A stretch of 64,000 bases of DNA from Salinimicrobium sp. TH3 (GTDB taxonomy: Bacteria; Bacteroidota; Bacteroidia; Flavobacteriales; Flavobacteriaceae): assembly GCF_026676115.1 (NCBI RefSeq), contig NZ_JAPONB010000007.1, positions 1 through 64,000 of the forward strand, given 5' to 3'. The notes beneath the pieces are model-generated. The model saw only the letters and a program-made list of their open reading frames with translations. It had not been told where the DNA came from and did not search any database. The translations under genes and the position numbers were made by a program. The stretch's first letter is position 1. Each line of letters starts with the position of its first letter. This document shows positions 3,151 through 64,000 of this stretch, piece after piece.

Positions 3151-3320
3151 TGCCCTCTTTCCTACAGAGGATGGTATAAGAAATTTCGCTTATTCTTTTG
3201 TCAACTGATTTCTTAATTAAATGGGAGTCAGAATGGCGGAGCAATGAAAAAAATCGCTTGCCAGGTTTACTGGAAGTTCAATAGGTTTTACATAAGCTCC
3301 GGGATATATTACAGGTAGTT

Positions 3321-46973: not shown

Positions 46974-46990
46974 AATTATCTTGAATTTAG

Positions 46991-47044
46991 TTCTCGATAC
47001 AAATTCATTCCTGCTACCGCAGTTATGAATTCACTCGAACTGAC
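46991..47044. repeat. Structured hairpin repeat overlapping the rmlD end
   Basis: On the minus strand: outer arms GTTCGAG and TATCGAGAAC, inner hairpin ATTCAT-CTGC-GGTA-GCAG-ATGAAT. It belongs to the same family as the seven copies in the 54.3-54.7 and 59.1-59.6 kb repeats and the copy at 31833-31874, but with different, still paired stem bases. The stop codon and last few codons of rmlD (47023 onward) lie inside it. Confidence 0.8.
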
Positions 47045-47904: not shown

Positions 47905-48475
47905 TCTCGTATAGGTTTTCGAAAAAATCAAATTTGTCAGCTTCATTAAAAAGAGGCTGATTTTTATCCTTATCAGATAACATCAATTTATCTGCAGGTA
48001 ATTCCCAATCGATATTAATAGCAGGATCATTGAAGAGGAAACCACGGTCGAATTCAGGAGCGTAGAAGTTATCACACTTATAAGCAAAGACGGCTTCATC
48101 TGAAGTAACAACAAAACCATGAGCAAATCCTCTTGGCACAAAAAGTTGCCTTTTATTCTCAGCACTTAACTCAACTATCACAGATTTACCAAAATATGGA
48201 GATCCTTTTCTAATATCCACTGCTACATCTAATACCGTACCCTGAAGAACCCGAACAAGTTTAGATTGGGTAAATGGAGGTAATTGGTAATGCATCCCTC
48301 TTAAAACACCATAAGAAGATTTTGATTCATTATCCTGACAGAAATTCACTTCATAACCAAGAAATTCCTCAAGTGTATCCTTTCTAAAGGTTTCGCTAAA
48401 GTATCCCCTGTGATCACCGAATATTTTAGGCTCACAAATAACAACGTCCGGGATTTCCGTTCTAATAAACTTCAT
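47879..48475 (-). CDS. rmlC: dTDP-4-dehydrorhamnose 3,5-epimerase
   Basis: A 198-residue cupin epimerase with [12 protein letters not shown] (about 21-32), [19 protein letters not shown] (about 49-67), [18 protein letters not shown] (about 73-90) and [10 protein letters not shown] (about 112-121), including the catalytic His of RGMHYQ. It turns the 4-keto intermediate into dTDP-4-keto-L-rhamnose. It overlaps rmlA by 14 bases and rmlD by 26 bases. Confidence 0.95.
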
Positions 48476-49358
48476 AAGCTATCTTTTTTTCAGCTCTTTT
48501 TAACAAATATTGACCATAACCATTCTTTTTTAAAGGATCTGCCAATGCTATTAATTGCTCTCGGCTGATATAACCTTTTTCAAAAGCTATTTCCTCCAGA
48601 CAGGCTACCTTTAGGCCCTGCCTTTTCTCGATGGTATGGATAAAATTAGAGGCTTCCAGCATAGACTCATGAGTTCCGGTATCCAACCAGGCGTATCCTC
48701 TTCCCATAAGCTCGACCTTAAGTCCTCCTTTTTCTAAATAAGCTTCATTTACAGAAGTAATTTCCAATTCACCTCTGTGACTTGGCATTACATTTTTGGC
48801 CACCTCAACGACAGTGTTGGGATAAAAGTAAAGCCCAACGACCGCATAGTTGCTTTTAGGTTGCTTTGGTTTTTCCTCGATGCTGGTGACGTTTCCTTCA
48901 TTATCGAATTCAGCTACACCATAACGTTCCGGATCATTTACATAATATCCAAAAACTGTAGCCTTACCTTCTTCTTCTACATTTTTCACTGATTGCCTAA
49001 GGAGTTCAGAAAACCCGTGACCATAAAAAATATTATCCCCTAATACCAGGCAAACATCATCATCTCCAATAAACTCTTCTCCAATGAGAAATGCCTGGGC
49101 TAAGCCATCAGGGCTCGGCTGCACTTTATATTCGAATCTCATCCCCAATTCTGCACCATCCCCAAGCAATTTCTCAAAATTTGGAAGATCTTCAGGAGTA
49201 GAAATTATAAGTACTTCCCTAATACCTGCGAGCATCAGCACCGATAAAGGATAATAAATCATTGGCTTATCATAGATACAAAGCAGTTGTTTTGAGACTC
49301 CTTTTGTAATGGGGTAAAGTCTGGTGCCGGATCCACCGGCTAAAATTATTCCTTTCAT
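48462..49358 (-). CDS. rmlA: Glucose-1-phosphate thymidylyltransferase
   Basis: A 298-residue nucleotidyltransferase with [14 protein letters not shown] (5-18), [16 protein letters not shown] (about 23-38), ALGD-type VLGDNIFYG (about 106-114) and [19 protein letters not shown] (about 160-178). It makes dTDP-glucose, the first step to dTDP-rhamnose. It is the first of the four rml genes and lies 57 bases after cysQ. Confidence 0.96.
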
Positions 49359-49415
49359 TTAAATGCGAATTTGCGCGAATTAAGATCGAATTTCACGGGT
49401 CGTTTTATGTTACTT

Positions 49416-50204
49416 TTAGTTTACAAGGAACCAGTTATTCAAAAGGTTTTCCCGGTTGTAAAGCATTGGCTCTTTTGTGGTGTGGTCTGTTACTGTTTTG
49501 CCGGCATACATGCAGATCGCCTGGCCTGCAGCCGTGTCCCATTCCATAGTAGGGGCGAAGCGGGGATAGCAATCGGCCTGTCCTTCGGCTACCATACAAA
49601 GTTTTAAGGAACTACCTTTGGAAATGCTGGTTACTTTCCCGTGTTCTTTTTCCAGAGTGAGGATATATTCTTCAGTCTCCGGGGAGAGATGAGATTTGCT
49701 TGCTACTACACAGTAGCTGTCATCTTTTCTGGGAAGTGGAAGCCGCTGTGCTAATTGATCCAGGCGATCCAGCTTAGAATCAGCAGTTATTCCGGCAGCT
49801 TTAAAGGAGCCTGTTTCTTTTTCAGCATAGTACAGTTCTTCAAGAGCGGGAACATAAATAACACCCAATACCGGTATCTGATCTTCAACCAAGGCTATAT
49901 TCACGGTGAATTCACCATTCTTTTTAATGAATTCCTTGGTGCCATCAATAGGATCAACGATCCATAATTGGTCCCAGCCTTTCCTTTCCTTATACGGAAG
50001 ATCCTTTCCTTCTTCCGAAAGTATTGGAATGTTCGTCTCCTTTAGGTACTCTATGATGATCTCATGGGAAGCCAGGTCTGCTTTTGTCAGCGGGGAATCA
50101 TCACCTTTAGCTTCCACTTCAAAATCCTCATTGTCGTAGATCTCCATGATTCGCTTTCCGGCGGCCAGGGAGGCTTTTATTGCAGTTTCGAGTAGGTTAT
50201 TCAT
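49416..50204 (-). CDS. cysQ: 3'(2'),5'-bisphosphate nucleotidase
   Basis: A 262-residue inositol-monophosphatase-fold enzyme with LSEEGKDLPY (about 60-69), WIVDPIDGTKEFIKKNGEFT (about 80-99, the metal site DPIDGT) and the C-terminal MEWDTAAGQAI (about 219-229). It removes phosphate from PAP, the inhibitory by-product of sulfotransferases. Placed with cysC, cysD and cysN and a sulfotransferase, it supports a sulfation cycle for polymer B. A 75-base spacer with a hairpin repeat (CTTCTCGACTCCGCTCGAAG, about 50235-50254) separates it from cysN. Confidence 0.93.
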   Translation of the reverse strand: MNNLLETAIKASLAAGKRIMEIYDNEDFEVEAKGDDSPLTKADLASHEIIIEYLKETNIPILSEEGKDLPYKERKGWDQLWIVDPIDGTKEFIKKNGEFTVNIALVEDQIPVLGVIYVPALEELYYAEKETGSFKAAGITADSKLDRLDQLAQRLPLPRKDDSYCVVASKSHLSPETEEYILTLEKEHGKVTSISKGSSLKLCMVAEGQADCYPRFAPTMEWDTAAGQAICMYAGKTVTDHTTKEPMLYNRENLLNNWFLVN

Positions 50205-50223
50205 TTGTAATCTTTGCTAGTTA

Positions 50224-50270
50224 GAGACCCCTCGCTTCTCGACTCCGCTCGAAGTGACAGCTCGAGGCGA
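50224..50270. repeat. Hairpin repeat between cysN and cysQ
   Basis: Contains CTTCTCGACTCCGCTCGAAG followed by TGACAG: arms CTTC.CGA and TCG.GAAG around ACTCCGC. This resembles a widespread flavobacterial intergenic repeat and could form a small RNA hairpin inside the operon. Confidence 0.55.
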
Positions 50271-50279
50271 CATTGGTAA

Positions 50280-51536
50280 TTAGACAATCATTCCGGCAGC
50301 CACAGTTTCATTTGTAGCCTGGTCTATTAAGATTATGCTTCCGGTATTTCGATTGTCCCTGTAAGAATCGATCATCAGCGGTCTTGTACTGCGAATTTTG
50401 ACGCGGGAAATGTCATTCATGTTCAAATCCTTGTCTTCTGTATTACGCTCAAAGGAATTGATGTCCATTTTGTAGACGACTTCTTTAATCATTGCCTGCT
50501 CCTCATTGGAAGTGTGGCGAACAATGTATTTAGCTCTTGGTTTGGCAGACTCATTGGCCAACCAACAAAGCATTACATCAAATTCCTGTGATGGCTCCGG
50601 TTGATTGTTTTTCTTTACGATCATATCGCCTCTGCTGATATCAATGTCATCCTCTAGTGTAATTGAAATTGACATAGGAGCATAAGCTTCTTCAAGCTCC
50701 TGCTCTCCTGCATTAATGGACTTTATTTTTGAGGTAAATCCCGAAGGTAAAACGGCCACCTCATCTCCAACCCTGTAGATCCCACTGGCCACTCTGCCCG
50801 CGTAACCGCGATAATCAATAAAACCTTCCCGCTGCGGGCGAAGAACTGTTTGAACTGCAAACCGGGAATCAATCTTATTAATATCACTGCTAATGTGAAG
50901 AGTTTCCAAAGTATTAAGAAGCGTGCCACCCTGATACCATTTCATATTTTCTGATGAATTCACCACGTTATCTCCTAGTAAAGCACTTATTGGAATAAAC
51001 CGTACATCTTTAACAATCAGTTTGGATGAAAACTCTTCAAACTGGGTTACAATTTCATTGAACCGATCTTCAGAAAAATCGACCAGGTCCATTTTGTTTA
51101 CACAAACGATAAGATGCGGTATATTCAGTAGAGAAGCAATAAACGAATGTCTCTTTGTCTGTTCAATTACTCCGTGACGGGCATCAATAAGAATTATTGC
51201 TGCATTTGCGGTAGAGGCTCCCGTTACCATATTTCGGGTGTATTGGATATGCCCTGGAGTATCTGCGATAATAAACTTTCGTTTTGGAGTGGTAAAGTAG
51301 CGGTAAGCCACATCTATAGTAATTCCCTGTTCTCTTTCATCCCTCAGCCCATCTGTAAAGAGAGCCATATCCACTCCGTCATGTCCTTTCTTTGCACTCG
51401 TAGCAGTTATCGACGCCAATTGATCCTCAAAAATTGATTTGGAATCGTATAGTAGTCTCCCAATCAAAGTGCTTTTTCCATCGTCCACACTTCCGGCGGT
51501 AGTGAATCTTAGTAGTTGGTTGTTATCTATTTGCAT
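50280..51536 (-). CDS. cysN: Sulfate adenylyltransferase subunit 1 (GTPase)
   Basis: A 418-residue GTPase of the EF-Tu-like family with TAGSVDDGKSTLIGRL (12-27), DTPGHIQYTRNM (about 92-103) and CVNKMDLVDF (about 145-154). It lacks a C-terminal kinase domain, consistent with a separate cysC here. With CysD it activates sulfate to APS. It belongs to the PAPS-forming set upstream of the rml genes and follows cysD after 137 bases that hold a GATAGCTATC palindromic repeat. Confidence 0.95.
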   Translation of the reverse strand: MQIDNNQLLRFTTAGSVDDGKSTLIGRLLYDSKSIFEDQLASITATSAKKGHDGVDMALFTDGLRDEREQGITIDVAYRYFTTPKRKFIIADTPGHIQYTRNMVTGASTANAAIILIDARHGVIEQTKRHSFIASLLNIPHLIVCVNKMDLVDFSEDRFNEIVTQFEEFSSKLIVKDVRFIPISALLGDNVVNSSENMKWYQGGTLLNTLETLHISSDINKIDSRFAVQTVLRPQREGFIDYRGYAGRVASGIYRVGDEVAVLPSGFTSKIKSINAGEQELEEAYAPMSISITLEDDIDISRGDMIVKKNNQPEPSQEFDVMLCWLANESAKPRAKYIVRHTSNEEQAMIKEVVYKMDINSFERNTEDKDLNMNDISRVKIRSTRPLMIDSYRDNRNTGSIILIDQATNETVAAGMIV

Positions 51537-51569
51537 AATATTGTTCTTCTCGATTTTCCGTTTTGCCCT

Positions 51570-51587
51570 TCCCGATAGCTATCGGGA
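51570..51587. repeat. GATAGCTATC palindrome between cysD and cysN
   Basis: TCCCGATAGCTATCGGGA is a perfect 18-base palindrome inside a TTTTGCCC...AAGGGAACCGGAAAA frame. Further copies are at 27904-27921, 27971-27988 and 31783-31800. In RNA it would form a stable hairpin in the cysD-cysN spacer and might affect processing or relative expression; untested. Confidence 0.85.
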
Positions 51588-51673
51588 CTAAGGGAACCGG
51601 AAAATTTTATAGTATATAAGTGATTGTAAATTAATTTCCCTCCCTTTAGGGCCGGGGTAAAGGAAATTAATTT

Positions 51674-52579
51674 CTAAAAGTAACCCTGTTTTTTTCTGTC
51701 CTCCATTGCCGTTTCAGATCTTTTATCATCTGATCTGTCTCCACGTTCTGTCTTTCTCATGGCAGAAACTTCCAGAGCTATTTTCTCTAAAGTATCGGCG
51801 TCAGATTCTATGCCACCGGTGATAGTAATATCTCCCAAAGTCCTGAAACGGATCTTCTTTTTTACCACCTGCTCATTTTCTTCCAACTTCAGGAATTCTG
51901 ACATAGGGATCCAGGAATTGCTTCTGAAAACAACATCTCTTTCATGAGCATAGTATAAGGATGGAATGCTGATGTTTTCTCTTTTGATATAGTTCCAAAC
52001 GTCCATTTCTGTCCAGTTGCTTATAGGAAAGGCGCGGAAATGTTCTCCTTCGAAATGTTTTCCATTCAGATGATTCCATAGTTCAGGCCGTTGATTTTTT
52101 GGATCCCATTCCCCGAAGTCATTTCGGTGAGAGAAGAAGCGTTCTTTTGCACGGGCTTTTTCCTCATCCCGTCTTCCTCCGCCAATTGCACAATCTACTT
52201 TGTTATTATCAATAGCATCAAGTAGGGTTGTAATTTGCAAAGCATTTCTGGTGGCATTTTTTCCCTTCTCTTCGGCTACTCTTCCCTGGTCAATAGAATC
52301 CTGGACAGAGCCAACTATAAGCTTTACGCCCAACTCCTTTATGAGATCATCGCGAAACTGGATGGTCTCCGGGAAATTGTGTCCGGTATCTACATGCATT
52401 AGGGCAAATGGAATTTTGGCCGGGTAAAATGCTTTTTTAGCCAGATGAGTTACCAGGATTGAATCCTTACCCCCGGAGAACAAAATAACCGGATTCTCAA
52501 ATTGCGCCCATACCTCCCGCAAGATGTATATAGCTTCCGATTCCAGTTCGTCTAAATAATTCAGGTAATATTTATTCAT
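51674..52579 (-). CDS. cysD: Sulfate adenylyltransferase subunit 2
   Basis: A 301-residue PP-loop ATPase with FSGGKDSILVTHL (34-46), MHVDTGHNFPE (about 61-71), GGGRRDEEKARAKERFFSHR (about 132-151) and FPISNWTEMDVWNYI (about 186-200), the standard CysD signatures. It forms APS together with CysN. It overlaps cysC by 8 bases. cysH and sulfite reductase genes are not next to it, which argues that the APS is meant for PAPS and sulfation rather than for cysteine. Confidence 0.95.
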   Translation of the reverse strand: MNKYYLNYLDELESEAIYILREVWAQFENPVILFSGGKDSILVTHLAKKAFYPAKIPFALMHVDTGHNFPETIQFRDDLIKELGVKLIVGSVQDSIDQGRVAEEKGKNATRNALQITTLLDAIDNNKVDCAIGGGRRDEEKARAKERFFSHRNDFGEWDPKNQRPELWNHLNGKHFEGEHFRAFPISNWTEMDVWNYIKRENISIPSLYYAHERDVVFRSNSWIPMSEFLKLEENEQVVKKKIRFRTLGDITITGGIESDADTLEKIALEVSAMRKTERGDRSDDKRSETAMEDRKKQGYF

Positions 52580-53174
52580 TGTGCTTAAACTGTATTATAG
52601 GTAAAATATGAGCAAGTACTCTTTGAGCTGATCTTTCTATTGTTTCTTCTTCTGTTCTTATTTCCACAGCGGGATTATTGGGTTTTTCAAAAGGGGCGGA
52701 TATTCCGGTGAAATTTTCAATTTCTCCCGCTCTTGCCTTCTTGTATAGGCCCTTTACATCTCTTCGCTCACATTCCTCAACCGAAGTGTTTACAAATACC
52801 TCTACGAAATTGTCCTCTCCAACGATTGTTTTGATTATTTCTCTGTCAGATTCCATAGGGGTGATAAATGCCGAAAGAATAACCTCGCCGGCATCCATAA
52901 ACAATTTCGCTACTTCGGCAATACGTCTTAGATTTTCAGTTCTGTCCTCCTCAGAAAATCCGAGGTTTTGATTCAATCCGCCGCGAATATTATCCCCGTC
53001 TAATGAATAAGTATGTATTCCTTGTTCAAATAGTTTTTTTTCTACCACATTCGCGATAGTAGATTTTCCCGAGCCGGAAAGACCGGTAAACCAAACGACG
53101 AGAGGCTGATGTCCTTTTAAATCACTTCGGTGATTTTGGGTAACATTGTAATCCTGAGGAATTATATTATTCAT
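52572..53174 (-). CDS. cysC: Adenylylsulfate kinase
   Basis: A 200-residue APS kinase with P-loop GLSGSGKST (31-39), LDGDNIRGGLNQNLGFSEED (about 58-77) and VFVNTSVEECERRDVKGLYK (about 125-144). It phosphorylates APS to PAPS, the sulfate donor for the sulfotransferase at 43154. It overlaps cysD by 8 bases and the DUF2061 gene by 8 bases, so all three are translated as a coupled unit. Confidence 0.95.
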   Translation of the reverse strand: MNNIIPQDYNVTQNHRSDLKGHQPLVVWFTGLSGSGKSTIANVVEKKLFEQGIHTYSLDGDNIRGGLNQNLGFSEEDRTENLRRIAEVAKLFMDAGEVILSAFITPMESDREIIKTIVGEDNFVEVFVNTSVEECERRDVKGLYKKARAGEIENFTGISAPFEKPNNPAVEIRTEEETIERSAQRVLAHILPIIQFKHNE

Positions 53175-53604
53175 CAGCTACTGAATTAGAAGGGGTTTTT
53201 CTGTGACTAAGTCCGTAATTAGATCTGTACCAGACTTTTTCGTGTAAATAGTATAGCAGCATTTTAGTTATAATCTCTACCATTCCCACTTTTAGTCCTA
53301 TTAAAGGATCTCCTGAAATCCACCAGGCAAGGATCATAGTGTCGACAGTTCCCACAACACGCCAGCTGATAGTTTTCGCAATATGCCGCCAATTGGTTGT
53401 TTCTTTATCCAAATTGAGCCTAAACCATAAGCGCTCGTGAAGGTAGTAAAGCACCATTTTAGTGACTACTTCGGCTAAACCAATTTGAACTCCAATTAAA
53501 GCATCCCCCGTGATGATCCAGGAAATTAACATGGTATCCAAAGTGCCGATGCATCTCCAGGTAATGGCTTTTGCTATATGGCGTTTGTGGGATGAGTCTT
53601 TCAT
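53167..53604 (-). CDS. Membrane protein with two DUF2061 repeats
   Basis: A 145-residue protein made of two near-identical halves (about 8-65 and 73-128). Each has the pattern HIAKA/T-I-S/T-WR-x-x-GT-x-DT-M, a hydrophobic segment, SGD/TGD-x-LIG and a second hydrophobic segment ending in LYYLHE. The DUF2061 family has no known biochemical role. The gene overlaps cysC and heads the sulfate-activation set, so a role in sulfate uptake, retention or membrane placement of PAPS synthesis is possible. It is first after the duplicated promoter and leader at 53876-54017. Confidence 0.85.
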   Translation of the reverse strand: MKDSSHKRHIAKAITWRCIGTLDTMLISWIITGDALIGVQIGLAEVVTKMVLYYLHERLWFRLNLDKETTNWRHIAKTISWRVVGTVDTMILAWWISGDPLIGLKVGMVEIITKMLLYYLHEKVWYRSNYGLSHRKTPSNSVADE

Positions 53605-53875
53605 TAAGTTATAAATTCCTGAGGTTATATCTTAGATCTCACTCCCCTAAGCGGCTTCCAACTCCGCCGGTTAGTAAGACGTATTTAATGAAGAGCAATT
53701 ATTTCAGTTATGAGTTAGGAGTGATGAGTTATGTCTTTACAGTTGCCTGTAGCCAGTTACGAATTACCTGTTGCGGGTTGCGCGTCATTTCGTTTTCTGT
53801 TTACCTTTTTTACTGAATAACCGCATTCTGAATCTTGAATTTTAAATCTTGAATTCGAAATGCCGCCTGCGGCGG
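53605..53875. other. Leader and hairpins upstream of the DUF2061-cys genes
   Basis: Untranslated leader expected from promoter P2. It has a perfect GC hairpin GCCGCC-TGC-GGCGGC (53862-53876) and TTGAATTTTAAATCTTGAAT-type repeats. It also contains TTGCCTG/TTGCGGGTTGCG units related to the minisatellite at 31651. No gene. Confidence 0.55.
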
Positions 53876-54740
53876 CACGGCTTCGCCGCTCTGAGTCCCA
53901 CAATGAGTGCGGTCAGATCGATGAAAGGTTCAGAAAATCAGATAAATGACATCCGAACCCGCGAGCCGGCAAATATATTCGTTAACTTTACTTTAAGACA
54001 AACAATGAATGTTAAATAATAGAAGTTTTTTATTAACAATAGGCAAAAGCTTCAATCTTTACGGAAAACCGTAATGGCATTGGGGTTTATAGTGGGAAAG
54101 AAAGTGGAAAATGAGAAAAAGGAGGAGAAGGGAATGTTAAATTTTTTGTAAGAATACAGAAAGAATTTCTGATAGAATTTAAGAAAACGTTTGCGGTGTC
54201 GGTTGTCAGTTGTCTGTTTTGAGTGGTGGGTTAATTCGGTAAATGTTTAAGTGGTTAAATGGGGATTGGTTAATTGGGGAATGGTGAATTGGGGAATGGT
54301 TATTAGTTAATCGGGGAATGGTTTAATGGGGATTGGTTGTTCTCGATACTAATTTCCCCCTTCTCTCGCAGGTTTAAATTCACTCGAACTGATGGGGAAT
54401 GGATAAATGGGGATTGGTGTTCTCGATACTAATTTCCCCCTGCTCTCGCAGGTTTAAATTCACTCGAACTGACGGGGATTGGTTAACTGGGGAATAGTTG
54501 TTCTCGATACTAATTTCTCCCTGCTCTCGCAGGTTTAAATTCACTCGAACTGATGGGAAATGGATAAATGGGGAATGGTTAATTGGGGGAATGGTTGTTC
54601 TCGATACTAATTTCTCCCTGCTCTCGCAGGTTTAAATTCACTCGAACTGACGGGGAATGGATAAATGGGGAATGGTTAATTGAATTTTTTTTACTGGTTA
54701 CTGATTACTGATCACTGAATACTAGCCCCTAATCTCTAAT
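53876..54740. repeat. Long direct repeat block, left copy (promoter-bearing)
   Basis: Homologous over its whole length, with gaps, to 58570-59640. Order from low coordinate: CACGGCTTCGCC leader segment, promoter P2, a purine-rich stretch, a GTTGTCAGTTGTCTGTTTTG segment, then AATGGTTAATTGGGG-rich DNA with four hairpin units (54340-54400, 54420-54480, 54501-54560, 54598-54660), and a tail reading GGTTACTGATTACTGATCAC. Together with the right copy it brackets manC, gmd, the GxxExxY gene and fcl. Confidence 0.88.
53970..54017 (-). promoter_or_regulatory. Promoter P2 of the cys/rml part of system B
   Basis: On the minus strand: TTTG (53999-54002), 21 bases, then TATATTTG (53970-53977), a full match to the Bacteroidota pattern. 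The box 53991-54017 is shared with P3 and P1 (23 of 27 positions with P1). A leader of about 360 bases leads to the DUF2061 gene. Confidence 0.75.
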
Positions 54741-54751
54741 CCGCAGATTTT

Positions 54752-55702
54752 TTATAGCTTGACTTCTTTAAAACTGTATTTGTTCTTCAGGAACCACTGG
54801 TAAGTCTTTTTTATCCCATCTTCCAATGAAGTTGAAGCTTGCCAACCTTCTTTTTTGATTTTTGATACCTCCATTAATTTACGTGGGGTGCCGTCAGGTT
54901 TTGAGCTGTCCCAGATAATATCGCCTTTGTGACCGGTGATCTCCTGGATAAGTTCTGCCAATGCTTTAATGGTAAGATCTTCTCCTGTACCTATGTTGTA
55001 TAGATTTTCTTCCAGCTTATTGTCCAGGGCAAAGAATACAGCAGCGGCAAGGTCGTCCACGTGTAAAAATTCACGCATGGGTTTCCCCGAGCCCCATAAA
55101 GTTACCGGCACATGCCCGTTCTCCTTTGCGTCATGGAATTTCCTGATCATAGCAGGAAGTACGTGGGAGGTTTCCAGGTCAAAATTGTCATGGCTCCCAT
55201 AGAGGTTAGTAGGCATTAGAGACACAAAGTCTTTCCCATATTGTTTTCTAATAGCTTCACAAGCTTTTACTCCGGCTATCTTTGCGATGGCATACCACTG
55301 GTTAGTGGGCTCGAGGCTATCCGTCAACAGGTATTCCTCCTTTAATGGCTGTGGCGCATTTTTAGGATAAATACAGGAGCTACCCAAAAAGATGAATTTT
55401 TCTACATCATTTTTATGGGCTGCATCGATCAGGTTGTTTTGGATCTGTAGATTTTCCATCAGGAACTGGTATGGGTAATCATTGTTCGCAAGTATGCCTC
55501 CAACTCTTGCAGCTGCATCAATAACCACTTCGGGGTTTTCTGTTTCAAAGAAGTCGGTTACTTCCTGCTGATTGCGAAGGTCCAGTTCTTTGGAGGTTTT
55601 ACCTATCAGGTTGGAGTAGCCTTCAGCTTTAAGTTTTCTCCAAATTGCGGAGCCAACCATGCCTTTATGACCCGCTATGTAAATTTTAGTGTTCTTGTCC
55701 AT
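54752..55702 (-). CDS. fcl: GDP-L-fucose synthase
   Basis: A 316-residue NADPH-dependent epimerase/reductase with YIAGHKGMVGSAIW (8-21), AARVGGILAN (about 64-73), LGSSCIYPKNAPQPLKEEYL (about 105-124) and WYAIAKIAG (Tyr-x-x-x-Lys). It makes GDP-L-fucose from the Gmd product. It is the last gene of the manC-gmd-GxxExxY-fcl cassette; just beyond its stop begins the left long repeat. It starts 72 bases after the GxxExxY gene. Confidence 0.95.
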   Translation of the reverse strand: MDKNTKIYIAGHKGMVGSAIWRKLKAEGYSNLIGKTSKELDLRNQQEVTDFFETENPEVVIDAAARVGGILANNDYPYQFLMENLQIQNNLIDAAHKNDVEKFIFLGSSCIYPKNAPQPLKEEYLLTDSLEPTNQWYAIAKIAGVKACEAIRKQYGKDFVSLMPTNLYGSHDNFDLETSHVLPAMIRKFHDAKENGHVPVTLWGSGKPMREFLHVDDLAAAVFFALDNKLEENLYNIGTGEDLTIKALAELIQEITGHKGDIIWDSSKPDGTPRKLMEVSKIKKEGWQASTSLEDGIKKTYQWFLKNKYSFKEVKL

Positions 55703-55774
55703 TTGATATTTTAGTCTTCCGGGGTGTTCTTACCGCTGATCTAATTTTGTTTTGATTCCGCGGATTATTGCGGA

Positions 55775-56164
55775 TTACACCGAAGGTTTTGAGTTGATAA
55801 AGCGTTTCCACTTTAAACTTTTCTCTCCAAAGTTGATGAGGAGTCCGATTTCTTTATTGGTGGCTTTTAAGTAATTGATTACCTGGCTCTCCAGATTCTT
55901 ATTTAAAAAGGAAACAGATTTTATTTCCAGGATTATCTTATCGTAACAAACAAAGTCAGCAATGAAATATTTATTCAGCTTTTCGCCTTCATAATGTAAA
56001 TTCAGCTTTTTCTGATCTTCAAAAGGTATTTCTTCCTTCCTGAATTCTTTGGCCAATACTTCCTGATACACTGACTCTAAAAATCCACTACCCATTTTTT
56101 TGTGCACCTCCATACAAGCTCCGATGATCTTATAGGTTTCTTGTTCAAATAGGAGAGGAGACAT
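55775..56164 (-). CDS. GxxExxY protein (PD-(D/E)XK nuclease-like)
   Basis: A 129-residue protein with the family-naming motif GSGFLESVYQEVL (about 26-38) and FIADFVCYDKIILEIKSV (about 68-85). The latter fits the D...E-x-K metal site of the PD-(D/E)XK nuclease fold. GxxExxY genes are common, short and often solitary in Bacteroidota; no activity is established. Here it stands between gmd and fcl in an operon for GDP-fucose. Either it hitchhikes as a selfish or DNA-processing element, or it helps maintain the surrounding repeat-rich DNA. No link to sugar chemistry is apparent. Confidence 0.87.
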   Translation of the reverse strand: MSPLLFEQETYKIIGACMEVHKKMGSGFLESVYQEVLAKEFRKEEIPFEDQKKLNLHYEGEKLNKYFIADFVCYDKIILEIKSVSFLNKNLESQVINYLKATNKEIGLLINFGEKSLKWKRFINSKPSV

Positions 56165-56236
56165 AATCCGTGCAATCAGTTTAAATCAATGGAATGTGTT
56201 TTCCGTGTAATCAGCTAAAATCCGTGTAATCCTATT

Positions 56237-57355
56237 CTATTCGTAATAATTCAAAGTGGGATATCCACCCTCCTTTAAATGGCAATCCTTCTTCATGAGC
56301 TCCACATCAGAACGCATCATGTCTTTCACAAGATCCTTCAGATCATACTCAGGTACCCAGCCAAGTTTGTTCTTTGCTTTACTTGCATCTCCAATTAGAA
56401 GATCGACTTCGGTAGGACGGAAATATTTTGGATCTACGGCAAGTACTTCTTTTCCTTCTTCTAATTGAAAGTCGGGATTGCTGCAGGATCTTACGTATGC
56501 TTTTTCATCTACACCGTTCCCAATGAACTTAAGTTCGATTCCAACTTCAGCGAAAGCCATACGCACAAAATCTCTAACAGGGGTGGTTTTACCGGTTGCG
56601 ATTACCCAGTCTTCAGCTTCTTCAGCCTGCAGGATCATCCACATCATGCGCACATAATCTTTTGCATGCCCCCAGTCTCTTTGTGCATCCAGGTTTCCTA
56701 AGTAGAACTTGTCCTGTAGACCAAGAGCAATACGAGCTGCGGCACGAGTGATCTTTCGGGTTACAAAGGTTTCCCCTCTTAAAGGTGATTCGTGATTGAA
56801 AAGGATACCATTACAAGCGTACATTCCATAAGCTTCACGATAATTTACCGTGATCCAGTAGGCATACATTTTGGCTACTGCATAAGGAGAACGAGGGTAG
56901 AAAGGAGTGGTTTCTGTTTGGGGTACCTCCTGTACTTTTCCGTACAATTCTGAAGTTGAAGCCTGATAGATCCGGGTCTTTTTTTCGAGTCCGAGAAGGC
57001 GAACAGCATCAAGAATTCGAAGTGTTCCCAGTCCATCTGCATTACCTGTGTATTCGGGTAGTTCGAAAGAAACATGTACGTGAGACATTGCTGCCAGGTT
57101 GTAGATCTCATCGGGCTGTATTTCCTGGATAAGACGAATTAAATTGGTGCTGTCGGTAAGATCCCCATAGTGCAGAATGAAATTCCTGTTATCCTGGTGC
57201 GGGTCCTGGTACAAATGATCTATCCTGTCTGTATTGAACTGAGAAGATCTTCTTTTGATCCCATGGACAATATAATCTTTCTTTAAAAGGAATTCACTCA
57301 GGTAAGCTCCATCCTGCCCGGTCACTCCGGTAATTAATGCTATTTTCTTACTCAT
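56237..57355 (-). CDS. gmd: GDP-mannose 4,6-dehydratase
   Basis: A 372-residue dehydratase starting at the ATG at 57355 ([20 protein letters not shown]); six extra in-frame codons upstream are unlikely to be used. It has the dinucleotide motif GVTGQDG, STSELYG (about 130-136), [12 protein letters not shown] (active-site Tyr and Lys), [14 protein letters not shown] and DWGHAKDYV, all diagnostic. It converts GDP-mannose to GDP-4-keto-6-deoxymannose for fucose synthesis. It follows manC by 68 bases. Confidence 0.96.
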
Positions 57356-57423
57356 GCTGTTAATGGATTTCACGGATTTTTAAAAGATTCTGCTGATTAG
57401 TGCGGGTACCGCGGATTGTATAC

Positions 57424-58425
57424 TTAATTAAGTAGAAGAGAATTTTGCTCCTCCAATTGTTGATATATTTTCTTTACGTCCTGGGAGACTTCTTTTTGTA
57501 GTACAAGGTTGGCATCTTCGGTACAAACTAAAATGCTGTTTTTCATGCCAACAAAGGCAGTGAATTTGTCGCAACCAATCACCATGTTGCCTTCCAGGTC
57601 TACAGGATGTCCTTTTTGGTGTAGATAATCATATATCGCCTCGAAACTTCCCATATCGCTCCAGTCAAAAGACGAGAGAACAACTTTGATTTTTTTGCTC
57701 TTTTCCATTATGGCATAGTCAACGCTGATGGCCGGGATATTCAAAGAAGTTTTAAGTTCCAGCTGTCCATCTTTGCTGTTTTTCCATGCGGTAAGGGATC
57801 TTTCGTAGATTTCGGGTTGGAACTGCTTTAGCTCCTCAAGGAAAACTCCGGCTCTAAAGCAGAACATGCCGCTATTCCAAAGAAAATTTCCTTTCTTTAA
57901 AAAATCCTCTGCTGTTAAAGCATCAGGTTTTTCTCTAAAGGAGAGGACATCTGCCTCTTTATGTTCGATATAACCGTAGCCTGCCTCGGGCCTTGTAGGC
58001 TGTATTCCGAAGGTTACAATATTATCCTGTTCAGCCAGAGCAATGGCATTTTGAACAGCAATTGAATATTCCGGGCCCTCCTCAATAACATGATCGGCAG
58101 GGGTTACTAATAAAATATCATCAGGATTGGCAGCAAAGGCTGCAAAGGCAATGGCGGGAGCGGTGTTACGCGGAGTGGCTTCGACAATGTGCACAAACTC
58201 AGAGGTCCCAAGTTTTTGAAGGCTGTTTTCTGAAAGTTGCCTGTTTCCCTGGTTTCCCACCACAATTAGCCCATCTGAAAAAGCAATGTTTCGTTGCACT
58301 GCCAGTTCAAATAATGAATTGTTTGCGAAAATACTGAGATATTGTTTTGGTCTGGACTGCCTGCTAAGAGGCCATAATCGGCTCCCTACCCCTCCCGTAA
58401 GGAGGACGTGAAGAATTTTTGACAT
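57424..58425 (-). CDS. manC: Mannose-1-phosphate guanylyltransferase
   Basis: A 333-residue nucleotidyltransferase with LLTGGVGSRLWPLSRQSRPK (8-27), VTPADHVI (about 107-114), FREKPDALTAEDFL (about 152-165) and WNSGMFCF (about 170-177). It is the GDP-mannose-forming domain only, without the C-terminal isomerase of the long ManC/AlgA form. It supplies GDP-mannose for gmd. It is the first gene behind promoter P3, with a leader of about 240 bases. Phosphomannomutase is not in the window. Confidence 0.94.
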   Translation of the reverse strand: MSKILHVLLTGGVGSRLWPLSRQSRPKQYLSIFANNSLFELAVQRNIAFSDGLIVVGNQGNRQLSENSLQKLGTSEFVHIVEATPRNTAPAIAFAAFAANPDDILLVTPADHVIEEGPEYSIAVQNAIALAEQDNIVTFGIQPTRPEAGYGYIEHKEADVLSFREKPDALTAEDFLKKGNFLWNSGMFCFRAGVFLEELKQFQPEIYERSLTAWKNSKDGQLELKTSLNIPAISVDYAIMEKSKKIKVVLSSFDWSDMGSFEAIYDYLHQKGHPVDLEGNMVIGCDKFTAFVGMKNSILVCTEDANLVLQKEVSQDVKKIYQQLEEQNSLLLN

Positions 58426-58662
58426 GAATCTCTTGATTATTTTGCCTTTTCAGAAGGTAGGGGCTTCTTCGTGGCGAGTATTACTTTGCTGTTAACGATT
58501 CCCGCTGTGAGATTTAAGAAGATGTTATTCAAACTTCGCAATTCTAAATTCGTATCTCTAACTTCCTGTCACGGCTTCGCCCCTCTGAGCCCCATCTAAA
58601 GTAGGTCAGGTCGATGAAAAGCTCCGAAAATCAGATGACTGACATTCGAACCTTAGAGCCGG

Positions 58663-58710
58663 TAAATATATTCGTTAACTTTACTTTAAGACAAACATTG
58701 AATGTTAAAT
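58663..58710 (-). promoter_or_regulatory. Promoter P3 of the manC-gmd-fcl cassette
   Basis: On the minus strand: TTTG (58692-58695), 21 bases, TATATTTA (58663-58670), one base off the consensus -7. The upstream box 58684-58710 differs from that of P2 at only one or two positions. Weaker -7 than P2, so possibly lower activity. Confidence 0.65.
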
Positions 58711-59195
58711 AATGGAAGTTTTGTATCAAAATCCGGTAAAAACGCCACTTTTTAAGGAAAACCGTAATGACAGAAAGGTTTTTGGCCAAGAAAAAGATAA
58801 GGGAGGAAAGAAAAGAGGAGTAGGAATGTTAAATTTTTCTTAGGAGTCGGGAGAAATTCTTTGGTTAATTTTAAGAAAACGTTTTGGTAATCGGTTGTCA
58901 GTTGTCTGTTTTGAGTTGTGGGTTAATTCGGTAAATGCTTAAGTGGTTAAAAGGGGATTGGTTAATTAGTTAATTGGGGAGTGGTTAATTTGGTTTTAAT
59001 TTTCCTAATTCCTAATTCCTAATTCCTAATTCCTAATCCCTAATCCCTGAAATTTAATTAATTGGTTAATTGGGGATTGGTTAACTGGGGAATGGTTGTT
59101 CTCGATACTAATTTCCCCCTGCTCTCGCAGGTTTAAATTCACTCGAACTGACGGGGAATGGATAATTGGGGAATGGTTAATTTGGTTTTTAATTT

Positions 59196-59251
59196 CCCTA
59201 ATCCCTAATCCCTAATCCCTAATCCCTAATCCCTAATCCCTAATCCCTAAT
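59196..59251. repeat. CCCTAAT heptamer tract
   Basis: Eight consecutive CCCTAAT units. A second tract of six lies at 59424-59465 and a variant TTCCTAA/TCCCTAA tract at 59002-59048. They resemble plant-type telomere repeats only by chance and are bacterial microsatellites prone to slippage. All are in the spacer upstream of P3, outside genes. Confidence 0.88.
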
Positions 59252-59784
59252 CTCTGAAATAGTTAATTGGTTAATTGGGGATTGGTTAACTGGGGATTGG
59301 TTTTTCTCGATACTAATTTTCCCCTTCTCTCGCAGGTTTAAATTCACTCGAACTGACGGGGAGTGGATAAATGGTGAATGGTTAATTGGTTAATTGGGGA
59401 ATGGTTAAATTGGTTTTTAATTTCCCTAATCCCTAATCCCTAATCCCTAATCCCTAATCCCTAATCTCTGAAATAGTTAATTGGTTAATTGGGTATTGGG
59501 TATTGGTTAATTGGGAAATGGTTGTTCTCGATACTAATTTCCCCCTGCTCTCCAACTGACGGGGAATGGTTAATTGGATTAAATTTTTTTTACTGGTTAC
59601 TGATTACTGATCACTGAATACTAGCCCCTAATCCCTAAAATAGTTAATTAGTTAATTGGGGACTGGTTAATTGGGGATCGGTTAATTTAATTAAATAAGC
59701 CAACAGCTAAAAGCTAACTGCCAACAGCTCTTTAACTTTGATCTTTAATCACTTGATCCTGAATTTTGAACACGGAATATTGAA

Positions 59785-60261
59785 TTACGAAAGAACATCC
59801 GACACCCTGACATTCACAACCACCCCAAGATCTTTTAAGACAAGTCTGAGGCGCTTTTTTCCGATCTGCTCTACAACCCCTTCTTTACCTTTAAAGCTGC
59901 CCTCTGCAATAGTGAGTCGGTCGCCGGGGGAGAGGTGGGATACTTCTACCGCTTCCACGCGGTCATCCTCCAGCCAGTTTTTGATTGTGTTGATCTCTTC
60001 CTGGCGGATAATGGCAGGTTTTCCCAACCAGAATACATATTGAACTGCCCCGGGAACATCGAAAACCTGTGACCGGTTTTTTTCCTCCAGGTACACGAAA
60101 ACATAAGATTTAAAAAGGGGAGAAGTGACTTTCTTTTTGCGGTCGCTCCACTGTTTTACTTCCGTAATAGTGGGGCAGTAGACCTCAATCTCTCTTTTCT
60201 CCAGTTCATTCGCAACTTTTTGCTCCCACCGCGGTTTAGTATACAGGGCGTACCAATTCAT
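59785..60261 (-). CDS. UpxY-like NusG-family transcription antiterminator
   Basis: A 158-residue NusG paralogue starting at the ATG at 60261 (MNWYALYTKPRWEQKVANEL, the NGN domain). Upstream in-frame codons run through the leader and are rejected. The NGN domain covers about 1-100 (with VFVYLEEKNRSQVF) and a KOW-like motif LSPGDRLTIAEGSFKGKEGV lies at about 106-125. UpxY proteins in Bacteroides prevent early termination in the leader of their own capsule operon. Here it precedes system B, but 1.36 kb of repeats and promoter P3 separate it from manC, so it may act in trans on P2/P3 leaders. Confidence 0.88.
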   Translation of the reverse strand: MNWYALYTKPRWEQKVANELEKREIEVYCPTITEVKQWSDRKKKVTSPLFKSYVFVYLEEKNRSQVFDVPGAVQYVFWLGKPAIIRQEEINTIKNWLEDDRVEAVEVSHLSPGDRLTIAEGSFKGKEGVVEQIGKKRLRLVLKDLGVVVNVRVSDVLS

Positions 60262-60344
60262 ATAATCTTTGTTGTCTGTCTTTGATAAAATTCTTTTCTG
60301 CGGTAGGGAAGCAGAAATTTTAAGGGGGCAACCCCGTTGTTGAA

Positions 60345-60352
60345 CAAATGTA
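60345..60352 (-). promoter_or_regulatory. Possible -7 element of the UpxY-like gene
   Basis: Minus-strand TACATTTG matches TAnnTTTG, 83 bases before the start at 60261. The leader between holds two hairpins: GGGG-TTG-CCCC (about 60326-60337) and TTCTGC-TTCCCTACC-GCAGAA (about 60295-60315). No clear TTG at -33. Confidence 0.5.
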
Positions 60353-60399
60353 AGCATAAGTTGGAAGAATGAAAAGGCGGAAATGATTTGAAAATTTGA

Positions 60400-61368
60400 A
60401 GATGTTGGGACATGAAGATTGGGAGGGAAGTTTTTCTGGCCACGAACCCGCCTGCCGGACGGGCTGGTGCACGAATGGCTTAAAAGGCGTTAGTCGGTAG
60501 TCCGTAGTCTGTAGAGCCAACAACCAACAGCTAATAGTTTAAAAATGAGATCCCTCGTCGCATTCTCTTTCTACCGAAAGCAAATGCTCTGTCGGGATGA
60601 CAGCAGGAATTCAGTCGGCAGTACGGCTGTACTAAGTCGGCAGTAAGTGCTTTCTGTGTCCGTTTGAAGATTTATAAATGAAGAAGATAAACATCAGGTG
60701 TAAATCAGATAAACCGACAACCGAGAACAGACAACTGATAACTGAAAAAGCCAACCCTCCTACGCCAAAGCTTCGGCGGCCAGGCAGCCGCTAGCTCAAA
60801 TGATGAGATCCCTCGTCGCATTCTCTTTCTACCGAAAGCAAATGCTCTCTCGGGATGACAGAAGAGATTCAGTCGACAGTGCGCAGTACTAAGTCGGCAG
60901 TAAGTGCTTCGTGTTTGTTTGAAGAATAAAATAAAGAAGAAAAACATCAGGTGTAAATCAGATAAACCGACAAACGAGAACAGACAACTGATAACCGAAA
61001 AAACCAAAATCTTTCAGGACCGACAACAGAAACTTGTTCCTGCAAGGTGTAACCCTACAATAAATACTGGCAACAGGCAACCCGAAATTCAGTAAAGCAG
61101 TACGGAGTACTAAGTCGGCAGTAAGTGCTTTGTGTGTGTTTGAAGATAATAAATAATAAAGATAAACATCGGGTGTAAATCAGATAAACCGACAACTGAG
61201 AACTGACAACTGATAACCGAAAAAGCCAAAACCTTCAGAACCGACAACAGAATCTTTTTCCTGCAAGATGTAACCCTGCAACAAATACTGGCAACAGGAA
61301 ACAGGCAACAGTAAAAACTCGCAAATTGCAACCCACAACAATTTTCACTCCGTCACTCCATCACTCCG
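60400..61368. repeat. Repeat-filled spacer right of the UpxY gene
   Basis: No gene. Three copies of a unit with the core AAATCAGATAAACCGACAA occur at 60610-60753, 60868-61086 and 61088-61310; the last two continue into a shared CTGCAAGRTGTAACCCT segment and form a tandem of about 220 bases. Two copies of the CTCGTCG/GTCGGGATGACA hairpin repeat precede copies one and two (60546-60602 and 60802-60860). The end carries GGCAACAGG and CACTCCGTCACTCCGT short tandem units. Confidence 0.8.
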
Positions 61369-62016
61369 TCACTCCGTTACAACTTCCACATCCGTAAAAA
61401 ACAACTCGAAACTCCCATCCTCACTTCGGTGCATTTTAGCAATGGCTATTCCCTCAAAAACATCATAATCTTCCCAGGTAGTAGCCAATGGATTTTCTCT
61501 ACTTCCCCCGGATAGGTATACCCATTCCTGTATCATATAGTCATTTCCAAAGTAGACTTCGTACATGTCACCCGGGGTATAACCGGCGCCGTCGGGATAT
61601 TTTACTGTTACCCGCTGCATTTCTTCGCCGCTTATAGGTGCAGTTGCCTGCTCTGTATGTTCCCATTCCATCTCATCCCAAACCAGGTGGAAAGGGAAAA
61701 GCAGCCAGTATTGATCATTAATGAACCGCTGATCTACCGCTTCATGTTGAGAAGCCTCTGTTTCGTAATTGTAGCTTGCAGTACTGTCGGGCGTTGTGAG
61801 GGTAGCTGTCTTCACCTGTGGCCGCCACGTCCAGGCTCTGCTGGTTCTGAGAGTGTCATCAACTCTCACGTTGAAGGTGTAGCGGAGTTCCTTCACATCT
61901 TCGAAATTCTGTATTCCGTTAGCTTCAGCTATTTTTTGCACAATAGTTTGATCTTCATTTTCATGGCAGGAGGTGATGATAAGGAGAAGGAGGACGAGGA
62001 GAGTGACTTTTTTCAT
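61369..62016 (-). CDS. Small lipoprotein of unknown function
   Basis: A 215-residue predicted lipoprotein (lipobox ITSC, Cys17). The mature part is beta-rich with many Trp/Tyr pairs (SRAWTWRPQ, NDQYWLLFPFHLVWDEM, YEVYFGNDYMIQEWVY), recalling single-domain LolA-like half-barrels and DUF6503-type proteins of Bacteroidota; this similarity is a visual impression. It stands alone among repeats, with no operon partner, and has no evident connection to polysaccharide synthesis. Confidence 0.75.
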   Translation of the reverse strand: MKKVTLLVLLLLIITSCHENEDQTIVQKIAEANGIQNFEDVKELRYTFNVRVDDTLRTSRAWTWRPQVKTATLTTPDSTASYNYETEASQHEAVDQRFINDQYWLLFPFHLVWDEMEWEHTEQATAPISGEEMQRVTVKYPDGAGYTPGDMYEVYFGNDYMIQEWVYLSGGSRENPLATTWEDYDVFEGIAIAKMHRSEDGSFELFFTDVEVVTE

Positions 62017-62729
62017 ATTATTATAGTTGGTATTGGATAAAGATATGAAAATGGGGGATTAGTTAATTGGTGAATTGGGGATTGGATAATCGATATCCAA
62101 AAAGCACGATTTCCAGGCCAAAATTCACAATCTACCAATAGAACAAAGCCTAAAGGCTAAGCTCATAGCAAACAGGCATAGCTCCTAATAAAAAATTGCT
62201 AACTAATTACTGCGCACTGCGAACTACTTTTCCCGGCTCCCTTTAGGGTAAGGGGTAAACCATCAAAAGACACCAGCTGTTGGCACGGACCTGTGATCCG
62301 GGACGATTATCAAAATTAGGAAAGATGGAGATGTTCTACATCCAGGGGGGAGATTGCTTCAGTTGCCTTTTCGGCTCCTTCGTAAAGACGTAAAGATGCT
62401 AAACAGTTGAAAAAAAACTGCCAACTAATCACTGCGCACTGCGAACTACTTTTCCCGATTCCCTTAAGGGCCAGGGCAAAACGGGAAAGGCGCAGCCACT
62501 ACAAAACGCCAACAGCTAAAAGCCAACAGCCAATAGTTTAAAAATTGATGAGATCTCTCGTCGCTCCCTCTTTCTCACGAAAGAAAAAGCTCTGTCGAGA
62601 TGACAACAAAAGTGGCAACCGGCAACAGATAAAACTCGCAACCGGCAACCGGCAACAATTAAACACCTGCAACCTGCAACTAAGAACAACCTTGAACTTT
62701 AAACCTTAAACCCACAACGGCCGCAGGCC
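62017..62729. repeat. Repeat-filled spacer
   Basis: No gene. Two copies of a unit beginning AACTAATTACTGCGCACTGC or close variant lie at 62200-62252 and 62423-62485, both ending in the CTCCCTTTAGGG-type palindrome. A CTCGTCG...GTCGAGATGACA hairpin repeat is at 62547-62605, followed by GCAACCGGCAAC short tandem units. About 62263-62400 shows nothing recognisable. Confidence 0.7.
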
Positions 62730-63485
62730 CTAAAGCGCTTTCACACTCATACCTCCATCAGCCACTATATTCTGTCCGGTAATGAAGGATGATCTGTCCA
62801 TGGCCAAAAATGCTATTATCGAAGCAATTTCTTCGGGTTCTGCAATGCGGTGGAGAGGTGTGCGACGCAGGATCATCTCCTTACGTTCGCCTTGAAGAAC
62901 TGAATCTGTAAGCGGAGTTCTTGTATACCAGGGTGAAACAGCGTTTACTCTAATGTGATCTCTGGCCCATTCAACAGCTAAACTTCTGGTTTGCTGCAGG
63001 AGTCCGGCTTTAGCCATGGCGTAAGGAGTACCTGTACCCACATCCTGGGTCGCAGCAGCCGATGCTATGTTGATGATCTTCCCATTTTTGGATTTCACTA
63101 GTTGTGGGTAAAGTTCCCGGGCCAGCAGAAACGGCGAGATTAGATTGGTCTCCAATACCTGCCGGTGTTCATCTTCTGAAATTTCAGTAGCTTTCTTCCG
63201 AATGTTGATCCCGGCGTTATTTACCAGAATGGTCACCGCTTTCCAGTTGTTATCTACCCAGGTCGAGATCTTTTGGCGGCCTTCAGCTTTTGTGACATCG
63301 GCAACTATTCCTTTTACTTTGTATCCGTCCGAAGTGAATTTATCTTCTACCTTAAGAATATCATCTGCATTCCTGGCGGTAAACAGAACTTCTGCACCCA
63401 ATTTTAAAAATTCCAGTACAGTCGCACGCCCAATTCCTTTGGAGCCGCCGGTAATGACAGCCGTTTGTCCTTTTAAGTTCCACAT
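62730..63485 (-). CDS. SDR-family oxidoreductase (tropinone-reductase-like)
   Basis: A 251-residue classical short-chain dehydrogenase: TGGSKGIGRA (12-21) for NAD(P) binding, NNAG (about 88-91), a Ser in IASAAA (about 137-142) and YAMAK (about 152-156) as catalytic residues, then VNAVSPWYTRTPLT and GQNIVADGG at the C-terminus. Basic residues near the first motif suggest NADPH. The substrate is unknown. It is monocistronic between repeats and shows no operon link to the polysaccharide genes. Confidence 0.9.
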   Translation of the reverse strand: MWNLKGQTAVITGGSKGIGRATVLEFLKLGAEVLFTARNADDILKVEDKFTSDGYKVKGIVADVTKAEGRQKISTWVDNNWKAVTILVNNAGINIRKKATEISEDEHRQVLETNLISPFLLARELYPQLVKSKNGKIINIASAAATQDVGTGTPYAMAKAGLLQQTRSLAVEWARDHIRVNAVSPWYTRTPLTDSVLQGERKEMILRRTPLHRIAEPEEIASIIAFLAMDRSSFITGQNIVADGGMSVKAL

Positions 63486-63568
63486 GTTTTTGTTATTAGT
63501 TAATTAGTGATTGGTTAATTGGGAAATGTTTATTTTTTCATTTCTAATTCGTTAATTCTAATATTAAA

Positions 63569-63946
63569 TTACTGCTTTTCCTCGGCTTGTCTCCTAAGAT
63601 ATTTAATGTATCCATTGATTAATTTTATACAAGACTCAGTTTGGAGACGGACGTATTGTAGTTTTTCATCTGAGATATAATCCCATGCCTTTGCTTCAAG
63701 AGAGTGGTCCAGGATTTCTGCTATTGAGCCCCGGGCATTAAAAAGAAATTTTATGTTTTCTTTGTAATGATATCTACCCCATCCTTCTGCTATGTTAGCT
63801 GTTGCTGATCTAGAAGCTCGCAATAGTTGAGAATATAATTCAAATCGCTCCGTTTTTGGTAAAGAAGGGAGAATTTTTTCTTTAATGTAAATTTTAAGTT
63901 CATTACAAACCTGCCAACATTGAAGGTTTTCAAAATTCTCTGCCAT
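63569..63946 (-). CDS. Four-helix-bundle protein (23S rRNA intervening-sequence family)
   Basis: A 125-residue all-helical protein with the family pattern: LQCWQVCNELKIYIKEKI at the start, LPKTERFELYSQLLRASRSA (about 32-51), NIAEGWGR (about 55-62) and a long last helix. Such genes are frequent orphans in Bacteroidota polysaccharide regions and inside some 23S rRNA insertions; no activity is proven. It lies 83 bases upstream of the SDR gene (same strand) with AT-rich repeats on both sides. Confidence 0.88.
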   Translation of the reverse strand: MAENFENLQCWQVCNELKIYIKEKILPSLPKTERFELYSQLLRASRSATANIAEGWGRYHYKENIKFLFNARGSIAEILDHSLEAKAWDYISDEKLQYVRLQTESCIKLINGYIKYLRRQAEEKQ

Positions 63947-64000
63947 CTTCTTTTTAGTTAATTGATTAATTAGAGTTAGAGAGTGGAGAGGTTTTTTATT

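Follow-up and report, generated by a model that had tools for sequence, protein, structure and literature searches.

Two copies of a probable UpxY-dependent promoter-leader module flank the GDP-fucose genes of a Salinimicrobium polysaccharide cluster

Two homologous blocks next to a UpxY gene enclose the GDP-fucose genes

The window analysed here, a stretch of 64,000 nucleotides from Salinimicrobium sp. TH3 (contig NZ_JAPONB010000007.1, positions 1 to 64,000), contains a polysaccharide cluster in which the GDP-fucose genes manC, gmd, GxxExxY and fcl lie between two homologous blocks, A and B, in direct orientation to each other. A gene for an antiterminator of the UpxY family is found just upstream of block B. 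We argue below that A and B are quite probably two copies of a promoter-leader module that depends on UpxY. An initial annotation of this DNA had described two direct blocks around the four genes, each with a promoter and leader directed at the genes that follow; this layout was confirmed at about the same coordinates, with the promoter-like sequences recognized by consensus only. The features are:

59785 to 60357, minus strand: UpxY family antiterminator gene, just upstream of block B.
58570 to 59640, minus strand: block B, a promoter-leader module plus repeat half, before manC-gmd-GxxExxY-fcl.
57424 to 58425, minus strand: manC, between the blocks.
56237 to 57373, minus strand: gmd, between the blocks.
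55775 to 56164, minus strand: GxxExxY gene, between the blocks.
54752 to 55702, minus strand: fcl, between the blocks (best model NF047922, 476 bits, just under its cut-off of 500).
53876 to 54740, minus strand: block A, a promoter-leader module plus a half of repetitive extragenic palindrome (REP)-like repeats, before DUF2061-cysC-cysD-cysN-cysQ.
49416 to 53604, minus strand: DUF2061, cysC, cysD, cysN and cysQ, behind leader A.

The protein encoded next to block B belongs to NCBIfam family NF033644 (E 6.2e-43, 146.6 bits, curated cut-off 100) and resembles the RfaH structure PDB 2oug (E 5.8e-12). By model it is an RfaH/NusG-type factor of the UpxY family, with antitermination as its predicted function. 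A long direct-repeat pair (60545-61315, 78% over about 560 bp) lies directly upstream of its gene.

The initial annotation had proposed aligning the two blocks. In a self-comparison of the window, the best alignment pairs 58570-59388 with 53876-54682 at 74.8% identity, with 64 gaps and an E value of 5e-150. The homology has two parts: a single-copy promoter-leader core near the genes, with 79% identity over 391 query bases, and a far upstream half made of REP-like units and simple repeats, which aligns in many registers. BLAST of the whole genome at E <= 1e-3 returned these two copies of the core and no third. The gene-side edge of the homology (53876 in A, 58570 in B) is sharp and coincides with the last base of a 12-mer; past this point A and B have nothing in common, whereas the match of B to a sister species, G005, continues as far as manC. 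Both the UpxY gene beside block B and the end of the A/B homology at the 12-mer count in favour of a UpxY-dependent module.

Anatomy of the leaders

At the gene-side edge of both blocks ends a 22-nt motif, GACTCAGAGCGGCGAAGCCGTG, with no mismatch in A and two in B, and its last 12 bases are identical in the two copies. Moving upstream from this 12-mer, each block presents a possible hairpin (H1), a promoter-like region and a palindrome:

53876 to 53887, minus strand: ops-like 12-mer GGCGAAGCCGTG of block A.
58570 to 58581, minus strand: ops-like 12-mer GGCGAAGCCGTG of block B.
53890 to 53917, minus strand: predicted leader hairpin H1 of A, from folding and a family-wide pairing test.
58585 to 58609, minus strand: weak predicted hairpin H1 of B, with folding no better than that of shuffled sequences.
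53970 to 54021, minus strand: promoter-like region of A, TTTAACATT...TTTGTCTTAAAG...TATATTTG, with its -7 box at 53970-53977.
58663 to 58713, minus strand: promoter-like region of B, with its -7 box TATATTTA at 58663-58670.
54059 to 54074, no strand: palindrome TTACGGTTTTCCGTAA, upstream of promoter A, a possible operator.
58752 to 58767, no strand: the same palindrome in degenerate form, upstream of promoter B.

The boxes TATATTTG in A and TATATTTA in B are promoter-like on consensus grounds, and the exact 51-base promoter pattern had zero matches in the contig collection scanned. Rfam covariance models, JUMPstart among them, gave no match at E <= 1 in 46000-64000.

A related element recurs at UpxY loci beyond the genus

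A scan of the contig collection with a UpxY alignment yielded more loci than were used; the best 80 were kept. At such loci, among them those of Flavobacterium and Christiangramia/Gramella, the leader model R1, built from Salinimicrobium leaders, gave weak matches a short way past UpxY, mostly to the last third of the model. A relaxed element pattern, drawn from the core common to some of the 80 loci, matched 56 times on the UpxY strand, in 56 of the 80 loci, against a single match on the other strand. Controls gave 2 matches for the reversed pattern and 2, 2 and 3 for three dinucleotide shuffles. Most of the matches (38 of 56) fall 0-400 bases past the end of the UpxY match; none is in the UpxY frame, and 5 overlap an open reading frame of at least 100 aa.

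The two arms of H1 covary across 57 elements: pairing each arm with its own partner gives -8.65 kcal/mol against -5.78 for permuted partners (sd 0.30; 0 of 20,000 permutations as low, in a test that ignores relatedness among the elements). Within the 12-mer, positions G2, C3, A6, G7, C8 and T11 are the same in all 57, as is partly demanded by the pattern, and G12 is present in 37. A promoter-like TAnnTTTG lies 20-130 nt upstream of 31 of 56 elements, in 13 of them at 44-47 nt, compared with a mean of 5.95 and a maximum of 12 for 20 random sets of positions. An Rfam search at gathering thresholds, covering 6 of the 80 UpxY loci, returned only a single tRNA. The strict Salinimicrobium form of the pattern matched 10 times, in 7 of 149 genomes of the family (reversed control, 2), indicating that this form is nearly bound to the genus.

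The element and UpxY occur together in genomes not chosen for UpxY

The association was also measured in two samples not selected for UpxY, 149 genomes of the family Flavobacteriaceae and 296 genomes of the class named Bacteroidia in GTDB and Flavobacteriia by NCBI, with G000 and G157 common to both. Elements were scored at E <= 0.01 and 0.001 with R2, a sequence-only model of 49 positions built from 50 of the 57 elements (L173, L177, L198, L201, G010b, Wwza and G001c were omitted by choice; the pairing test used all 57), and UpxY at E <= 1e-25. R2 was trained mostly on flavobacterial loci beside UpxY, so that near matches are favoured by related species.

In the class sample, the element is found in 51 genomes and UpxY in 106, with both in 50 where 18.3 would be expected (Fisher 1.4e-25). 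As many as 47 of the 51 lie outside the family of the window, and 46 of these 47 also carry UpxY. The family sample behaves alike, with the element in 21 of 149 genomes, UpxY in 30 and both in 19 (Fisher 2.0e-14). Matches no more than 2.5 kb from UpxY make up 31 of 60 in the class (19 downstream, 12 upstream) and 16 of 29 in the family (11 downstream, 5 upstream), and all of them are on the UpxY strand. For 11 of the 29 remote class elements we read the next gene by eye: nine look like sugar, export or cluster-associated genes, including a GDP-fucose synthase-like gene in L205.

Several observations weigh against a UpxY-dependent module. The other two of these 11 remote elements precede genes with no obvious link to polysaccharides (integrase-like in L232, MORN-like in L228), and matches not within 2.5 kb of UpxY amount to 29 of 60 in the class and 13 of 29 in the family. 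Many UpxY genomes have no element at these thresholds (56 of 106 in the class, where the stricter filters of the scan lose weak matches, and 11 of 30 in the family), just as 24 of the 80 UpxY loci have no match to the relaxed pattern; some UpxY proteins may use other signals. Conversely, three genomes (G438, G014, G151) have the element without UpxY at the cut-off. Finally, the relatedness ignored by the H1 permutation tempers that result, and the folding energies are mixed: leader A folds better than its shuffles (z -2.64 over 93 nt, weaker at z -1.38 over 50 nt), whereas leader B does not (z +0.10 over 92 nt, z +1.25 over 49 nt), and H1 in leader B could therefore be marginal.

The best-surviving alternative, which we nevertheless consider unlikely, is that the leader is a generic one of polysaccharide operons, such as a pause, an attenuator or the site of another regulator, and that it lies close to UpxY because both belong to the same clusters. 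The leaders do precede polysaccharide genes, and some elements are far from UpxY. The palindrome would offer a site for such a regulator: of 13 TACGK-N4-MCGTA sites in 1.44 Mb, 9 are placed 82-84 nt upstream of an element, all in Flavobacterium (L140, L145, L149, L153, L156, L168, L172, L173 and L184), and this sequence is likely a regulator site. The TTACGG-N4-CCGTAA-type palindrome of blocks A and B sits further upstream than in those loci. However, polysaccharide clusters are common in these bacteria, and yet the element is present in only 1 of 190 class genomes and 2 of 119 family genomes without UpxY at the cut-off. This rarity disfavours a generic leader.

Cassettes change behind the leaders between species

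Across 12 genomes of the genus, UpxY scores above the curated cut-off in 8 (10 genes), and the same 8 hold all strong matches to R1 (13, E <= 2e-7; the next best is 5.5e-4). Twelve of these 13 are themselves training sequences of R1, originally found by similarity or pattern and not through UpxY. Four genomes lack both UpxY and leader: G004 and G006, which are nearly complete, and G007 and G008, with a completeness of about 75%. A fragment of UpxY at the edge of a G008 contig scores 96.9 bits, slightly below the cut-off. G005 has kept the core at the corresponding position, and six other species of the genus share it in the form of promoter plus 12-mer.

The genes that follow the leaders vary. 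The first gene is manC behind leader B and in G005, G009 and G001 (by tblastn for some), DUF2061-cysC behind leader A, a Polysacc_synt flippase-type gene behind a G002 leader and a gene of the UDP-glucose/GDP-mannose dehydrogenase family in G010, with orthologues in G002 and G011. One G001 leader is followed by a Glycos_transf_4 gene and another by a homologue of the 796-aa window protein at 28327-30717, Wzc-like by eye and with no Pfam match at 1e-10. In G003, two open reading frames that look by eye like an IS3-type transposase pair stand behind the leader, followed by manC; the pair lies at G003:C11 ~23863-25136 (L020/L021), and its first frame has no Pfam match at 1e-10.

The dehydrogenase genes are informative. 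In G003 and G009 they come directly after fcl, with a single leader in front of the cassette and none between fcl and the dehydrogenase, and they are 80-90% identical to the leader-adjacent ones of G002, G010 and G011. The next three genes also match between G003 and G011 (90, 85 and 69%). With orthologous dehydrogenases found either behind the cassette or directly behind the leader, the GDP-fucose cassette is, on sequence comparison between species, present or absent right behind the leader.

The initial annotation had read the blocks as recombination arms, that is, direct repeats kept to excise or duplicate the fucose cassette and thereby switch the sugar content of the capsule, in a modular plug-in design. 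The modular part stands between species and over evolutionary time (G003 and G009 versus G002, G010 and G011); for the role of the blocks as arms we see no such support, and we regard it as very unlikely. Recombination-switched cassettes have near-identical repeats, and these blocks reach 74.8% overall and 124 of 146 positions (85%) in the leader. In G003 and G009 only one leader accompanies the cassette, and no second one follows it. G005, a sister species, carries one block, located between UpxY and manC, and has kept manC, gmd and fcl, in the order leader, manC, DUF2061, cysC, cysD, GxxExxY, cysN, cysQ, gmd, fcl. An origin of this arrangement by recombination of A with B was considered and ruled out by the gene order, with sulfate genes after manC. 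Moreover, the linkage to UpxY already explains the conserved core. The GxxExxY genes of the window (55775-56164) and of G005 (G005:C13:248297-248665) occupy different operon positions and are only 56% identical.

From promoter to 12-mer, A and B agree at 124 of 146 positions, A and G005 at 135 and B and G005 at 127, so the two copies are about as far apart as the species are, or B evolves faster. The blocks are thus not a recent duplication. In the 146 aligned columns, 121 are the same in all three, B alone deviates in 14, A alone in 6 and G005 alone in 3, and 2 are all different; a mosaic inside the leader was considered and rejected, as a faster B copy explains this pattern.

The repeat halves give the arms some support, beyond the direct orientation itself. 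The exact A/B runs of 61, 52 and 49 bp are in this half, whose units are:

54342 to 54645 and 59101 to 59351: REP-like 46-mer units, CTCGATACTAATTT...TTTAAATTCACTCGA.

The unit has 4 exact copies in the window, or 6 allowing mismatches, and its exact form is confined to blocks A and B among the 12 genomes. The best repeat-unit match also reaches a higher identity within the window, at 94.7% over 114 bp for A against B, compared with 88.7% over 115 bp for A against G005. Some exchange or joint spread of repeats between the blocks is therefore likely on these comparisons, and occasional recombination of A with B may occur, given the exact runs and the greater likeness of the repeat halves. A diverged relative lies at 46990-47045.

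That the whole homology is accidental, with nothing behind it but spreading REP-like and simple repeats and a promoter arisen by chance, is highly improbable. Repeats of this kind, aligning in many registers, do make up the upstream halves, but the core lies outside them and its conservation in G005 and six further species largely refutes this reading for the core.

Proposed mechanism and action in trans

Our favoured interpretation remains a UpxY-dependent promoter-leader module in two copies. RNA polymerase would start at the TATATTTG-type promoter and transcribe about 90 nt, the nascent hairpin H1 would form, and the polymerase would pause at the ops-type 12-mer GGCGAAGCCGTG. UpxY, whose gene lies immediately upstream, would recognize and bind the paused complex and keep the polymerase going through the long polysaccharide genes. 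With the module present twice, the GDP-fucose genes and the sulfate/rhamnose genes would each have a UpxY loading event of their own. We infer these steps, as well as the service of one UpxY to all copies, from sequence. Over evolution, sugar cassettes would be gained or lost behind such leaders.

A third, diverged copy of the module would serve another export cluster in the window:

3101 to 3246, plus strand: third, diverged promoter-leader, with the 12-mer GGCGGAGCAATG at 3235-3246, before the Wza-like gene at 3321-5909.

Its profile match has an E value of 1.2e-19, though the sequence was in the training set, and the gene at 3321 is a polysaccharide export gene with SLBB domains. This side of the window has no UpxY within 50 kb of the leader, which suggests action in trans. 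In G003 and G010, UpxY and the leader diverge on opposite strands, so that any action of UpxY on the leader would have to be in trans in these genomes. A one-contig genome, G032, has three elements (G032:C1:523838, 946260 and 1519749), all at least 350 kb from its single UpxY, as a candidate trans regulon.

Taken more broadly, we lean, with some reserve, towards a class-wide scheme in which UpxY would be recruited by one shared signal in two parts, first a nascent hairpin with covarying arms and then an ops-type 12-mer. In many genomes the factor would control several operons in trans, in the manner of RfaH, and clusters would evolve by swapping cassettes behind copies of the loading site; this Salinimicrobium would load the factor twice along one cluster. 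The matches listed in the literature searched included no published UpxY signal in flavobacteria, and none of the listed papers on Salinimicrobium exopolysaccharide dealt with the subject by title. If correct, the scheme provides a searchable signature for UpxY-controlled operons and turns a locus-level idea into base-resolved predictions. It would also explain how capsule sugar genes can be exchanged without loss of control, every module either bringing a loading site with it or attaching to one.

Comparison with known systems

Among the closest known systems are the leaders at which UpxY brings about antitermination in capsule operons of Bacteroides (Chatzidaki-Livanis 2009; Saba 2024). Bacteroides UpxY is reported in the Saba 2024 abstract to recognize the polymerase in its paused state, by way of non-template and upstream DNA and with nascent hairpins assisting, and the anatomy found here, a hairpin and then a predicted pause, would fit that account. 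In both cases a UpxY-family factor is encoded at the polysaccharide locus and a leader precedes the target genes. The systems differ in layout. In the window upxY precedes leaders A and B, whereas the Bacteroides leader stands in front of upxY, the first gene of the target operon; here, moreover, several transcription units have a copy of the leader, and the leaders of G003 and G010 point away from upxY. Both layouts exist elsewhere, with 12 of the 31 near class matches upstream. A second UpxY gene in the same genome (L119, G000:C20:35159-35611) has an element at 35910-35944, 299 bp upstream on the UpxY strand, the arrangement described for Bacteroides. Parts of PMC7819879 and PMC12118408 describe UpxY as preventing premature termination in the leader.

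LoaP likewise combines a NusG paralogue with a leader hairpin in antitermination, as described in a portion of PMC12691694. It differs in that the window protein scores 56.2 bits against a LoaP cut-off of 125, and in that the dfn hairpin is reported, in the same portion of PMC12691694, to cause no discernible pause.

The likeness to RfaH and ops is more specific. The Escherichia coli ops element is the 12-nt GGCGGTAGCGTG, and excerpts of PMC5995543 attribute its pausing to the conserved flanks, with a pause-inducing TG at positions 11-12, while RfaH recognizes the centre in the form of a small hairpin. GGCGAAGCCGTG equals GGCGGTAGCGTG in length and shares its four bases at either end (GGCG, CGTG), both elements lie in leaders of surface-polysaccharide operons, and UpxY matches RfaH structures. 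The central four bases differ, GTAG in ops and AAGC here, so the sequence is not an exact ops; moreover, the factor gene here is within the cluster, a covarying hairpin precedes the element, and UpxY is below the cut-off of the RfaH model (84.6 versus 144.5 bits). By analogy with the argument in those excerpts of PMC5995543, the 12-mer would look like a pause with the recognition centre of another factor; a GAA loop in it could be closed by the pairs G2:C8 and C3:G7. The resemblance between its flanks and those of ops suggests that RfaH and UpxY share a common pause-based loading logic, with a centre specific to each factor.

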